Source of the DNA: Eremothecium cymbalariae DBVPG#7215
Lineage: Eukaryota > Ascomycota > Saccharomycetes > Saccharomycetales > Saccharomycetaceae
Assembly (NCBI RefSeq): GCF_000235365.1
Contig: NC_016456.1
Coordinates: 1 to 64,000, forward strand
Direction: 5' to 3'
Length of the DNA: 64,000 nucleotides
A program made the translations under genes and the position numbers. Each line of letters begins with the position of its first letter. Positions within the stretch are counted from its first letter, which is position 1. The notes beneath the pieces are model-generated. The model saw nothing but the letters and a program-made list of their open reading frames with translations, did no database searches and had not been told where the DNA came from. This document shows, piece after piece, positions 22,168 through 61,953 of this stretch.

Positions 22168-23976
22168 ATGTCTTTCAATTCATCCTACAATTCGCAGGTC
22201 ATGCAAGATTATACATATAACGGAGCCGGGCAATTTCGTGCGCAGCAGAATAGCGCGCTGACCCGGCAGCTTTCAGCATCATCAGCAGCTTCGACGTCTT
22301 CCAATGGGCCGGAGACGACTTCGACACAGCTGTATATGGGTGATTTAGATGCTAGCTGGACTGAAAATGATATTAAGCAGATCTGGGCGACTCTTGGGGA
22401 GCCCAACGTCCAAGTTAAGTTGATCAAGAACAGTGGCCCGATGAATAACTCGGGGTACTGCTTTGTTGAGTTTCCGTCGAACCTATCAGCTACCAATGCT
22501 TTGTTGAAAACCGGGCTGCCCATTCCTGTGGATCCTTCACGGTCGCTTAAGCTGAATTGGGCTTCCTTTGCTACGGCCCCAGGCACTGAGTTTTCTATTT
22601 TCGTCGGGGATTTGGCTCCCAACGTTAGCGAATCGCAGTTGTTCGAACTGTTTATTTCACGGTACTCGTCAACGCTAAACGCCAAGATCGTATTCGACCA
22701 AGTCACCGGGGTTTCCAAGGGATATGGCTTTGTAAAGTTTGGAAACGAGGCAGAGCAGCAGCGCTCCTTAGTGGAGATGCAAGGTGTTTTTCTCAATGGC
22801 AGAGCTATTAGGGTTTCGACAACGTCCAAAAACAAGTCTCGTTTTCGAGGAGGACTTTCCGGGACCGTAACATCCGCCGCTGCCGCTACTGCGGGGCCAC
22901 CAGTGGGTAATCTCTCCGGGGTTATTCAGACGAGCAGCCCGCAAACGCTCCCACAACAATCACAATTTATATATCCTGTCCAGCAACAGCCTGTGCTATC
23001 CCAGTTTACAGATCCTAATAATACCACTGTATTTATAGGCGGGTTGTCATCACTTGTTACTGAGGAGGAACTACGCGCCTACTTCCAGCCCTTTGGTCAA
23101 ATAGTATATGTTAAGATTCCTGTAGGGAAGGGTTGTGGTTTCGTTCAGTATGTGGACCGCAGCTCGGCAGAAAACGCTATTGCTAAGATGCAGGGATTCC
23201 CAATAGGCAATTCCAGAATCAGATTGTCTTGGGGCAGGAGCGCGAAGCAGGCCGCTGGGATGCAACAGGTCTTTGCCATGACATTGCAACATCAACAACC
23301 CCAAAAGACGCAGCAACAGCAACAGCACCACAATCATCATCATAACACACAGCAGTCGATCCAGGAATCTCAGAAGCATCGGGCCCCGCAACAACAGCAA
23401 CAAACCGCAGCTAATAACACTTCCACAACTACTACAACAGTTCCTAATTTGGCTACTGGTGGTGCTGCTGGCACTACCTCTGCTGGCACTGCGCAACCGT
23501 TGCTGCAACAGCAGTTACAGCAACAATTCCCGTACCAACAACAACCTGCTATGCCACAGACTTACAGTTATACTCTGGACTCTATTAGCGGCACTGGGTC
23601 AAACTACGTCCCAATGTCCCATATACCACCTATTCAGTTAACATACCAATCATCTGCTATTATTGATCCTTCATCTTCGTCTGCTTTGCTTCCAAACCTA
23701 ACTACATTAGATTATTCAGGGTTCCCTTCTTCCAACAATTCTAACTTCAACTTCTCGCCTTCCACCTCACTAGGTGCAGGCTTCAATCAGCAAGTTTTCG
23801 ATTATTCTAACAGCGACATGGGAACGCCAATGGCACAGACACCGAATACTGCGGCCAGCACCCAGTCGACAAAGCATCCCCAAATCTTCGTGCAAGGTGG
23901 GGAGGCCTACGTCAAAGGTAGGAATAGCTCGATAGATAGGTTGGAGCAAGGTAGCAACGGATACATTTTTGTATAA
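22168..23976 (+). CDS. NAM8: U1 snRNP-associated RNA-binding protein Nam8
   Basis: Three-RRM protein of the U1 snRNP (TIA-1 family) that stabilises U1 at weak 5' splice sites by binding U-rich sequence downstream. It is required with Mer1 for meiotic splicing. The ATG at 22168 (MSFNSSYNSQVMQDY) gives 602 residues against 523 in S. cerevisiae; a TTG four codons upstream is not used. RRM1 starts near 56 (LYMGDLD), RRM2 near 141 (IFVGDLAPNV, RNP1 KGYGFVKF), RRM3 near 285 (VFIGGLSS, RNP1 GCGFVQYV). The C-terminal 220 residues are Gln/Asn/Ser-rich and end RLEQGSNGYIFV, as in the family. Ortholog of YHR086W. Its meiotic partner target SPO22 is also in this window. Confidence 0.94.
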   Translation: MSFNSSYNSQVMQDYTYNGAGQFRAQQNSALTRQLSASSAASTSSNGPETTSTQLYMGDLDASWTENDIKQIWATLGEPNVQVKLIKNSGPMNNSGYCFVEFPSNLSATNALLKTGLPIPVDPSRSLKLNWASFATAPGTEFSIFVGDLAPNVSESQLFELFISRYSSTLNAKIVFDQVTGVSKGYGFVKFGNEAEQQRSLVEMQGVFLNGRAIRVSTTSKNKSRFRGGLSGTVTSAAAATAGPPVGNLSGVIQTSSPQTLPQQSQFIYPVQQQPVLSQFTDPNNTTVFIGGLSSLVTEEELRAYFQPFGQIVYVKIPVGKGCGFVQYVDRSSAENAIAKMQGFPIGNSRIRLSWGRSAKQAAGMQQVFAMTLQHQQPQKTQQQQQHHNHHHNTQQSIQESQKHRAPQQQQQTAANNTSTTTTTVPNLATGGAAGTTSAGTAQPLLQQQLQQQFPYQQQPAMPQTYSYTLDSISGTGSNYVPMSHIPPIQLTYQSSAIIDPSSSSALLPNLTTLDYSGFPSSNNSNFNFSPSTSLGAGFNQQVFDYSNSDMGTPMAQTPNTAASTQSTKHPQIFVQGGEAYVKGRNSSIDRLEQGSNGYIFV

Positions 23977-50208: not shown

Positions 50209-51543
50209 TTAAATGTTATCCTCTCCAATAATTTGCATCCATGTTTTGCCTTCCATCTTCAATTGTTCAGTAACTTCATCCTTGATTCTAGCAACTACAC
50301 CAGGACCTCTGTAGGCATATGAAGTGTATAACTGGACAAATGTAGCCCCAGCTTTTGCAAATTCGATAGCATCTTGGCCCGAGGAAATACCTCCGCAACC
50401 AACCAAAATCAATCCAGAGTCTTTTGTGTATTTAGAAATTGTTCTTAATGCCTGTAACGAAAATGGCTTCAATGGCTTTCCAGAAAGACCACCAGCTTGG
50501 TTATTTATTGTCTCCTCTTTTGTATACAGGGTGTCTGGTCGCTGGATTGTAGTGTTTGAAACAATGATACCATCAACCTTGGATTTCTTTGCAGCTTCCG
50601 CAACAGATTGTAACTCAGGTTCGGTCAAATCGGGGGCAATCTTGACCAGCACAGGGGGTTTGTGAGTTTTGGCCCCCAATGCATTGCCCTGGTCGATCAA
50701 AGAATCTCTTTTAGCAACAACCTGTGACAGGAGTTCAACTAACTTGCCCTCATGTTGCAGGTCTCTTAAACCTGGCGTGTTTGGAGAGGATACGTTGATA
50801 ACTAAAACATCTGCTAGTGCTTGAAACTTTTCCACGCCTTTTACAAAGTCCTTAACCTCATCTCCATCCTTGTTCTTGCCCAAATTAATACCTAACAACT
50901 TATTTTTGTATAGTGCCAAAGTGTCGACTTCCTGGTCTCTGAAGTATGACTTTATGAACCTATTAACACGTTCAGTAATATTGCCAAAGACCACATTGTG
51001 ACCAGAAGAGTTGAACCCATATCTGTTGATGACAGCTTCGTCCTGAGGTAGTCTAAAAAACCTTGGTTTCGGGTTCCCTGGCTGAGATAGTGGGGTAACA
51101 GTACCAACTTCAACATAACCAAACCCACTGTGTGAAATTCCGTCAATGGCCTCAGCATCCTTATCCAAACCAGCAGCACAGCCAATCGGATTAGTCATTC
51201 TCGTTCCAAATACATCTACAGCTAATACCTTATCATCCTTATCGAACAATAGCCTTGGAGCCAGTCCCCACTTCAAGAACCAAATGCCCATTCTGTGTCC
51301 ATTTTCACCATCTGGTGTGACAAGCCTGAGAAGAGGACATAGCACATATTCATGGATAGCCGACCTCGAATTCATAAAATAAAACCCAATGATAGTGCCA
51401 CATGCTATGCTGCTGCCATAAAGCAAAAACTTCGATGCTCCACTAGTAACTGATGCCTGCAATGGGACTTCCATATTAGACACAAAATATTTTGGTATTC
51501 TAAAGGGAAATACCATACGCTTACTAAAACGCCGGGAAAACAT
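50209..51543 (-). CDS. URA9: Mitochondrial class 2 dihydroorotate dehydrogenase
   Basis: Inner-membrane, quinone-dependent enzyme that oxidises dihydroorotate to orotate in pyrimidine synthesis, feeding the respiratory chain. The ATG at 51543 starts [20 protein letters not shown], a good presequence. The 38 codons upstream lack an ATG and are excluded, giving 444 residues. A transmembrane segment ([19 protein letters not shown], about 37-56) precedes the barrel. Visible motifs are [26 protein letters not shown] and [11 protein letters not shown], whose serine is the class 2 catalytic base. S. cerevisiae instead uses the cytosolic fumarate-dependent URA1; no URA1 is seen here. The class ties growth without oxygen to pyrimidine supply. 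Confidence 0.94.
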
Positions 51544-58954: not shown

Positions 58955-61868
58955 TCATTCACTTAGATCGGAGTTCAAGGACGACCATAACTCTGCTAAA
59001 TGCTCCTCTAAACGATTATTAAACAAGCTTGCAAGCTGGATTGCCTTGCGGCACCACTTTTCACCCATTAATCTGTTTTCTTCAGCAATGTCAGTAACAC
59101 CCTGGTTCCATATGGAGGTGGTTATGCATTCTAGTTCCTGAGAAGCGGCTGGTGTGTTGTAGTCAGTGGATGATCTCATTCTAGGGTGAAGTTCGTTTAT
59201 TATCCTCAAACATGTTTGTTCGCTTGTACTTATTGAGTTCTCTATTAGGAGCCTGGTCCAGGTAAGCAAAGTGATATCGTCAATTCTTGTCGTGGTGATG
59301 TTACGCTCGATCAATACTGTTAAGATATAAGATAGCATTGGTTTTGGGAAGTCATCCAGTGGAACAATGTAATTAACAAGAGCTGAATCCAAGTCGCCAT
59401 TCTGGTATTTAGCGCTTTGGTCCATTATCTGATGTATAAATTGTTCGTTTCTTGTTTGAATTGCAACTTCATAAGCGATGATTAGAATATCAAAAAGACA
59501 GCGCCTAAAGCGTTCCTTTAATTCTTCATCGGCTAAATTTAAGAAGTCCTGGTCAGCTAGTTTTTTTGCGAGTTCATTGAATAGCTGGCTGTACGTCTCA
59601 GTGAATGATGACAGGCTTTCATTGTTGGCGCTGTTTTTTTTGGCCATCAAAGATAAGGTTATACACCTGTATCTCCAGTACTCGTACTGCATCCGCTTGC
59701 TTGGGATGAAGTCGTTCAGAGCCATTAACGAAATAAAGTTGACCGCTAATTCGGAGTACTTTAACGCACTTGCATAGTTTTCTTCCCTTGTGCATTTGAC
59801 ACCAATATTATATGAAACTGATGCGAACCATTCTAAGTCATCAGAAGAAATAACTTCATTGTGAGCGTTAATCTTTGGAGCAGAGACGCTATTTAGTATT
59901 TTCACCGTGTTTAGGAATTGAAACCCCTTATTTAGTAAGTGTTCAAATGTTGGTAGATACCTGTTAAATACAGCTTGCTCCTTCTCACATAATTTTAAAA
60001 TCAATTGGATAGTGTAACGAAGGGAACATGCGATGGGCATATCTTTGCCATTTGTACCATCTTTTTCAAGTTTTTGAAATAAAAGTAGCATAGCTTTTAT
60101 GGCTAGTTCAGTTGAGTTTTTGCAGTCAACTATACCAAGAATTAATGTATCCACAGATTTAGGGTTTTCAGATTCCTTCATATGTTGCAAACACTTTAGG
60201 GCTTCATCCTCATTATTTTCAGCAATAAACACCTTAAACATTATCAACTTGGTCAATGGGTGAATTTTATCACGTTCCTCCATTTCATTGTACACTGATT
60301 TCACGCCCGAATGATTTGCTGTCTCCAGATATGCATACTTTAGGGCCCTTTGGACTTTAGCTTTATCCTCATAGCCACTCGAGATAATATCTTTTAAAGC
60401 CAGGTTAAACCACCCAATGCTGTCTTGAGGATTGCCTGCTTTCTGCAACTTTTTCCCAGTGTTGAAGAGTAACGTTACTAGACTTGATATAGCTGCTTTT
60501 GATGGTTCCTGAGAGATGATTCGTTCGTACTGTGCAAAAAAATGTTCTAGACTTTCTATCTTCTCTGCATTCTCCATTGTCAGTGCTTGTGTGATAATGA
60601 AAACTCTGGTAGTAGCAGCCCTCTCCAATAACGTTTGATCCTTCGTAGCATCTATTTTGTTTAAAAATAAATAATCCAAACATCTAATAGCAGAAAGAGA
60701 ATCGAATTTTGCTTGATCATTAATACACCCTAATATAGAGTCAAAATTAACAGATACATTCACAGACATTATCATCCTCATCAAAATTTCCTCCCTGGAA
60801 TTGGTATCCAAACTTGATGTTTTGTCATTAAATTTAATAGCCAATTTAAATGACTCAATCTTATTTGGGTAATCATTCTGAATGATGTCTAAGTACCTGG
60901 AGCATAAATTAACATCCAGCTCATCTGATTCAACCATGAGATTAGCAAGAAACAATAATAACGTATACCTGGTATTGCTATAATCTGGATGTTGCTTCAA
61001 GCCAGAGACTGGTAAATTCAAATATTCAACTGCGCACTGTAAAAAGAAGTATAGCTCTTCTACCTTGATCTCCGGTTCCGAGTTTCTTAAAGAAAGCACA
61101 CTGTTATATATCACTCGACACAATTCAAGGACTAGTTCAGCATTAATCACATCAACACTCGATTTTATGTTCGCTTTGGACTCATAAAACTGTGCCATTT
61201 TCAGATCCTTGTTACCCAAGGCAAGCTGGAAATTGGTCATGAATAACTCGATCTTCAACTTGTTAAATTCAGCCATTTGTTTTGAAGTTAGCTTTTCTTT
61301 CGACTCCTCTAGTACTCTTAGGCATTTATCTGCATTCTCTACTCCATTTGGTATCAAATCTGCGAAATTATCATCATTGCAGAACTTCAAGTACTTTAAA
61401 AAGCACTTCAAAATACGTATTCGCCCTTCGTTTGATTGACATACAGCTTCATGGATGGATAATAATAAGGTTGAAAAAAGCATAGTGCTGCAGAATACCT
61501 TTTTATTCTCGGTGTTGTTTTCCATCCTCATTGCAAAAATAACCGCATTCCATAGGCTTGTAGCAGAGTTCTCTAAAGACAATATTACATCATCTGGAAT
61601 CAATACCTGGGAAACCCTAAATGTTCTATCATATTTTTCAACCATCGGGATGAGTGATATAATTTTTGATTTAATCGCATTAGTTTCATCTGTTAAAAGA
61701 GTTTTAGTAGTAGAGAACTTTGTTGTTATCCAGTTTGCAACGTCTGAAAATATTTGATGTTAGGAATCTGATATACGCATCTAAATCTCTTGAGGGTATT
61801 AGAATAACTTCTTAATTACCGGTAAACTCCATTATAGATGTCTTGAATTTAGAATTTATCTCTGACAT
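58955..61868 (-). CDS. SPO22: Meiosis-specific TPR protein Spo22/Zip4, with 5' intron
   Basis: ZMM protein that promotes crossovers and synaptonemal complex polymerisation. The body of the gene (ATG at 61645) is open further upstream to 61759 and looks coding (DVANWITTKFSTTKTLL). An upstream ATG at 61868 opens a 49-nt exon (61868-61820). The intron 61819-61744 starts GTAATT, contains ATACCCTC (61799-61792), branch TCCTAAC (61765-61759) and ends TTTTCAG, and exon 2 is 61743-58955. The exons join in phase (G|AC) to give 945 residues; S. cerevisiae Spo22 has 975. The protein is a chain of TPR-like helical repeats. ATACCCTC fits the Mer1 enhancer AYACCCUY, and S. cerevisiae SPO22 also has a Mer1-dependent intron. 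URS1 upstream. Ortholog of YIL073C. Confidence 0.88.
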
Positions 61869-61944
61869 GGCTCGCTCTTGACTTTGGTGATAGTTGTTAG
61901 AAGGGTTGAACATCAATTTTTTGTTTTTTTTTTGTTCGGAGGAA

Positions 61945-61953
61945 AGCCGCCGA
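61945..61953 (-). promoter_or_regulatory. URS1 element of SPO22
   Basis: On the SPO22 strand TCGGCGGCT lies 77 nt before the exon 1 ATG. This matches the Ume6 site core of URS1, which represses early meiotic genes in vegetative cells and activates them with Ime1 in meiosis. Confidence 0.8.

Follow-up and report, generated by a model that had tools for sequence, protein, structure and literature searches.

Introduction

Regulated splicing is rare in budding yeast, and Mer1 is its textbook case. The Mer1 targets of S. cerevisiae, MER2, MER3, SPO22 and AMA1, are described in the available text of PMC6380292 as having introns with non-consensus donors and the word AUACCCUU, and as requiring Nam8; the same text has Ume6 acting on URS1 in early meiotic genes. 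According to the available text of PMC8567612, MER1 is ancestral and has homologues at syntenic positions even in distant families. In Saccharomycodes ludwigii, which belongs to another family, that text reports that MER1 has been lost and that no introns were detected in AMA1, HFM1 and REC107. A pre-duplication origin of the system is thus already partly in print, since this source reports both an ancestral MER1 and a predicted SPO22 intron outside the Saccharomycetaceae.

The genus Eremothecium is termed pre-whole-genome-duplication in the accessible part of PMC3276169, which gives E. cymbalariae 8 chromosomes of 9671 kb in total, a full ZMM set and 232 introns. PMC4202332, which surveyed introns with S. 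cerevisiae orthologues, counts 204 in this species; the accessible part of its main text makes no mention of SPO22, AMA1, REC107 or HFM1. Among the literature matches listed for Mer1, its targets, Eremothecium, intron evolution and AUACCCUU, supplements apart, no description of a Mer1 enhancer or regulon in Eremothecium was found.

Here we describe the E. cymbalariae SPO22/ZIP4 gene, whose intron is very likely, by analogy with S. cerevisiae, to be efficiently removed only in meiosis via Mer1 and Nam8, by a design common to REC107, HFM1 and AMA1. As in S. cerevisiae, the introns lie in the same four genes, with non-consensus 5' splice sites and a AUACCCUU-type word, and both MER1 and NAM8 are present; unlike in S. 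cerevisiae, the genus is pre-duplication, the donors are GTAATT, GTAGGT, GTACTT and GTAAAT, and dependence on Mer1 is predicted by analogy. With Saccharomycodes ludwigii the species shares a predicted SPO22 intron (PMC8567612, available text), but it differs in possessing MER1 and in that introns fit in all four genes. What is new is this instance of the known mechanism, predicted from sequence, in a pre-duplication genus.

Results

Structure of the SPO22 gene

The window, a stretch of 64,000 nucleotides, is the start of contig C8 in a genome of 9,669,424 bp in 8 contigs. SPO22 lies on the minus strand of chromosome 8 and its spliced frame encodes 945 amino acids; the product belongs to the SPO22 family (PF08631, E 5.3e-69) and shares 36% identity with its S. 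cerevisiae counterpart across 99% of the query, with no match among solved structures. Elsewhere in the window, a dihydroorotate dehydrogenase gene of 444 amino acids (50209-51543, minus strand) is found two genes beyond RPN2.

An earlier note made from the letters of this stretch had proposed an additional 5' exon and an intron, and its exon, 5' site, branch site, TTTTCAG and phase (G|AC) are all found letter for letter. On the minus strand, exon 1 (61820..61868) is 49 nt long; it starts at the ATG at 61868, comprises 16 codons plus one nucleotide (MSEINSKFKTSIMEFT) and ends at G61820. The intron (61744..61819; 76 nt) is in phase 1, interrupting the codon G|AC. Its 5' splice site GTAATT (61814..61819) differs from GTATGT at +4 and +5, its branch site TCCTAAC (61759..61765) has its branch A at 61760, 16 nt upstream of the last intron nucleotide, and its 3' splice site is TTTTCAG (61744..61750). 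Exon 2 (58955..61743) contributes 2789 nt including the stop codon and carries the PF08631 domain.

The predicted Mer1-type enhancer, ATACCCTC, occupies 61792..61799 on the minus strand, intron positions +21 to +28. The earlier note had it fitting AYACCCUY and lying 20 nt after the 5' site, and indeed it begins at 61799 where the donor begins at 61819; this degenerate form is the one given in that note. The intron word is the single sense copy of AYACCCTY in the 2914-nt gene. An in-frame TAA within the intron (61812..61814, minus strand) ends the unspliced reading after 18 codons, also in agreement with what had been claimed.

Splice models were enumerated from all ATGs and GT or GC donors in a stretch of 330 nt running down from 62011 and all AG acceptors to 61645, with introns of 45-400 nt. 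Ten models kept the frame, three of which join GTAATT to the CAG whose last base is 61744 and start at the ATG at 61913, 61868 or 61832. Three others, with GTAATT and a later acceptor, and one with a GTATAT donor and that same later acceptor were rejected; they lose exon-2 residues that align with homologues. The remaining models, also rejected, use a GTCAAG donor (two models) or a GCCATG donor (one). The ATG at 61913 is the start that competes with 61868 on the same intron: it is 45 nt upstream, in frame and with no stop between, it lies downstream of a URS1-type site, and it could add 15 residues if the transcript begins above 61913. The three homologues with exon-1 sequence, however, begin at the position of 61868 (MSE.. 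/ MSD..), and the longer form is unlikely. The start at 61868 is used in what follows.

Exon 1 as coding sequence

The alternative to an intron is a start at the ATG at 61645, giving 896 amino acids, with the similarity upstream being decayed sequence. This 896-aa reading is the product of a list of ORFs running from ATG to stop and is the sole form listed by a protein search, where E. cymbalariae SPO22 appears with one member and no 945-aa form; such a listing is also compatible with the exon being missing from the SPO22 annotation. Against an unspliced gene, the main frame extends without a stop as far up as 61759, 114 nt upstream of the first ATG at 61645, and both this upstream frame and the separate exon 1 align with the proteins of S. 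cerevisiae (P0005), S. kudriavzevii (P0003) and Vanderwaltozyma polyspora (P0008). In view of the open frame and the exon-1 homology the 896-aa start was rejected, and a gene without the intron is very improbable.

The spliced protein aligns with these three homologues through the junction, as in MSEINSKFKTSIMEF-T|DVANWI of E. cymbalariae against MSEIISTFDSSLLEF-C|DATVWI of V. polyspora. When exon 1 was shuffled, the observed score was reached in 0 of 5000 trials against V. polyspora, 5 of 5000 against S. cerevisiae and 0 of 5000 against S. kudriavzevii. Furthermore, among the 1138 stop-free 16-mers that start with ATG on either strand of the window, exon 1 ranks first against the V. polyspora and the S. 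cerevisiae N-terminus alike. On these comparisons exon 1 is predicted to be coding.

The alignment took in eight of ten relatives; P0010 and P0011, whose starts lie further in, were not included. Half of those aligned (P0002, P0006, P0007 and P0009) begin at an internal methionine, and the N-terminus of P0004 is unrelated, as would be expected from gene calling without the intron. P0009, listed at 938 aa, has MNWITTK as its first residues, just within exon 2.

The other three Mer1 targets

Introns of the same design can be modelled in the other three genes. REC107/MER2 has a first exon of 256 nt and an intron of 93 nt with GTAGGT, ATACCCTT at +16, TACTAAC and TAG; in HFM1/MER3 an exon of 106 nt precedes an intron of 116 nt with GTACTT, ATACCCTC at +43, AACTAAC and TAG; and in AMA1 an exon of 1282 nt precedes an intron of 127 nt with GTAAAT, ATACCCTT at +28, TACTAAC and CAG. 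All four introns, that of SPO22 included, are in phase 1, each has a non-consensus donor, and each contains one AYACCCTY. The three models are constrained by frame and branch site and, for REC107 and AMA1, also by homology across the junction.

The identity of each gene was examined through its domains and neighbours. REC107 lies near an LSM-domain gene (LSM8 by position), an aldolase-II gene (MDE1-like) and BNA1, and the Pfam Mer2 profile covers residues 13-199 of its spliced product, unbroken at the junction near residue 86. HFM1, whose open frame has 1199 codons, is the single-cassette Sec63-domain helicase and adjoins a Ppx/GppA gene that is presumably RTG2. By score AMA1 ranks third among the Cdc20/Fizzy-type proteins, and it is found as two pieces in separate open frames; its best solved-structure matches (Cdc20, query residues 411-603) span the junction near residue 428.

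At position +4 the donors have A in SPO22, G in REC107, C in HFM1 and A in AMA1, and U in none of the four. A strong preference for U at this position is reported for Eremothecium in the available text of PMC10581693, which also has the genus retaining the U6 methylase METTL16 despite that preference.

Chance level of the enhancer word

AYACCCTY occurs 1164 times in the 9,669,424 bp of the genome (539 and 625 on the two strands) and the reversed control pattern 1307 times (646 and 661), and there is no genome-wide enrichment of the word over this control. In a 76-nt intron about 0.004 copies are expected. REC107, HFM1, AMA1 and SPO22, together 9628 nt, contain four sense copies and no antisense copy, and all four sense copies are inside the 412 nt of intron in these genes, where 0.023 would be expected from the genome-wide density. 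The probability that four randomly placed copies all land in these 412 nt is about 3e-6, although such figures flatter the case somewhat, because the splice models of REC107, HFM1 and AMA1 were hand-picked after the enhancer matches were known.

Control meiotic introns

HOP2, REC114 and MND1 have introns in S. cerevisiae and are not known to be Mer1 targets. Their E. cymbalariae introns, two in HOP2 and one in each of the others, were read by eye and served as controls. The donor is GTATGT in all four control introns and in none of the four regulon introns, and a sense AYACCCTY is found in none of the controls and in every regulon intron. One Mer1-type word at HOP2 was set aside; it is antisense and arises from that gene's own GAGGGTATGT donor region. 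The SPO16 gene of E. cymbalariae is reported to have an intron (PMC3276169, accessible part), and SPO16 was not recognised near SPO12 or in one other stretch of C2.

These controls bear on the possibility that the SPO22 intron is real and ancestral but constitutive, or controlled in some other way (for example by Nam8 alone), with ATACCCTC a relic or a chance word. A SPO22 intron can persist without Mer1, since one is predicted in the MER1-less Saccharomycodes ludwigii (PMC8567612, available text). Against this reading stand the confinement of the sense word to the regulon introns in the comparison above, the departure of every regulon donor from consensus, and the retention of both MER1 and NAM8, and we regard it as quite unlikely. 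The interpretation of SPO22 as a Mer1 target is supported, and extends to a four-gene regulon, because the three other targets fit the design and the control introns differ.

MER1, NAM8 and BUD13

The earlier note had proposed looking for MER1 in the genome, and the gene proved to be present in the expected neighbourhood. A KH-domain search of the genome gave 16 matches; the one at C6:885658 led to a 310-aa protein that is 100% identical to the entry Mer1p Ecym_6456. Its gene (L026 8493-9422) was assigned on the KH domain of the product (PF00013, 31.9 bits against a cut-off of 21.5, residues 223-296) and on its neighbours: it sits between genes for a protein-tyrosine phosphatase and an HSP70; VID27 lies upstream, separated from the phosphatase gene by one further long ORF. 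This arrangement agrees with the S. cerevisiae neighbourhoods MER1/SSB2 and PTP1/SSB1 (order PTP1 - MER1 - SSB).

The E. cymbalariae protein thus resembles the Mer1 splicing activator in its KH domain, in its position between PTP1-type and HSP70 genes and in a URS1-type site upstream. With its 310 aa it is linked by sequence search to Eremothecium/Ashbya relatives only: a single-sequence search gave E. sinecaudum, Ashbya aceris and E. gossypii, and a profile search with the four Eremothecium/Ashbya Mer1 proteins (8000 candidates scored) returned those four and not S. cerevisiae Mer1. In the Mer1 proteins, including those of the Ashbya species (P0014 and P0015), conservation is higher in the C-terminal KH part than in the remainder. 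These Ashbya species retain MER1 though A. gossypii is reported, in the accessible part of PMC3276169, to be without SPO22 and MER3.

NAM8, which the earlier note had recognised, is present in the window at 22168..23976 on the plus strand; among solved structures it matches Protein NAM8 best (E 9e-124), it has three RRM stretches, and IPI1- and STE12-family genes lie upstream. BUD13 is also present in the genome.

URS1-type sites

A putative URS1-type site, TCGGCGGCT, lies at 61945..61953 on the minus strand, 76 nt above the exon-1 ATG of SPO22, and this 9-mer is a single copy in the 64-kb window. A second, TAGCCGCCGA, is found no more than 40 nt upstream of the MER1 ATG. No GGCGGC core was found within 600 nt upstream of REC107, HFM1 or AMA1; therefore URS1 control is suggested, by analogy, for SPO22 and MER1 only. 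A URS1-like GGCGGCTAA was also noted upstream of MND1 (L055 about 1788-1796).

Discussion

From the elements, positions, frames and homologies observed here, and with MER1 and NAM8 present, a scheme for SPO22 can be proposed in which binding, splicing, meiotic restriction and URS1 control are inferred from S. cerevisiae. In early meiosis URS1-driven transcription would provide MER1 and SPO22 RNA. The GTAATT donor would be too weak for the U1 snRNP alone, and in cells without Mer1 most SPO22 RNA would stay unspliced and give an 18-codon peptide. In meiosis the KH domain of Mer1 would bind AUACCCUC, 20 nt after the start of the donor, and Mer1, together with Nam8 on the U1 snRNP, would stabilise U1 at the donor, leading to the 945-aa SPO22 protein.

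The SPO22 design is also found in REC107, HFM1 and AMA1, so that a four-gene Mer1 regulon would exist in a pre-duplication species. The suggestion of the earlier note that meiosis-specific splicing seems older than the genome duplication is supported, by analogy, by the splice elements, MER1, NAM8 and the three further targets. On sequence grounds the Mer1 circuit is probably old and stable, and not a peculiarity of Saccharomyces; it offers a reason why these introns withstood the general intron loss of yeasts.

How the regulon arose is a further matter, and here we lean towards its having been assembled complete in the common ancestor of Eremothecium and Saccharomyces and kept as a unit in both lines, with the Mer1 of A. 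gossypii serving AMA1 and REC107 only. In such a history the four introns would survive because they are switches, and, if it is true, the ancestral regulon consisted of one activator, one 8-nt word and four weak-donor introns in phase 1.

A. gossypii gives a test of the circuit: it is reported to have lost two of the four targets (PMC3276169, accessible part), and MER1 remains. In that text only ZIP1 is kept of the ZMM set, SPO22 and HFM1 being lost; elsewhere the paper mentions an A. gossypii SPO16 homologue, so that its ZMM count is not fully consistent. In our SPO22 protein search (7991 candidates scored) none of the 11 matches, several of them nameless, named E. gossypii, which agrees with the reported loss. 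E. gossypii nevertheless retains the KH protein ABL173C, a Mer1 relative, and, if the circuit is as proposed, Mer1 in A. gossypii should act on AMA1 and REC107 alone.
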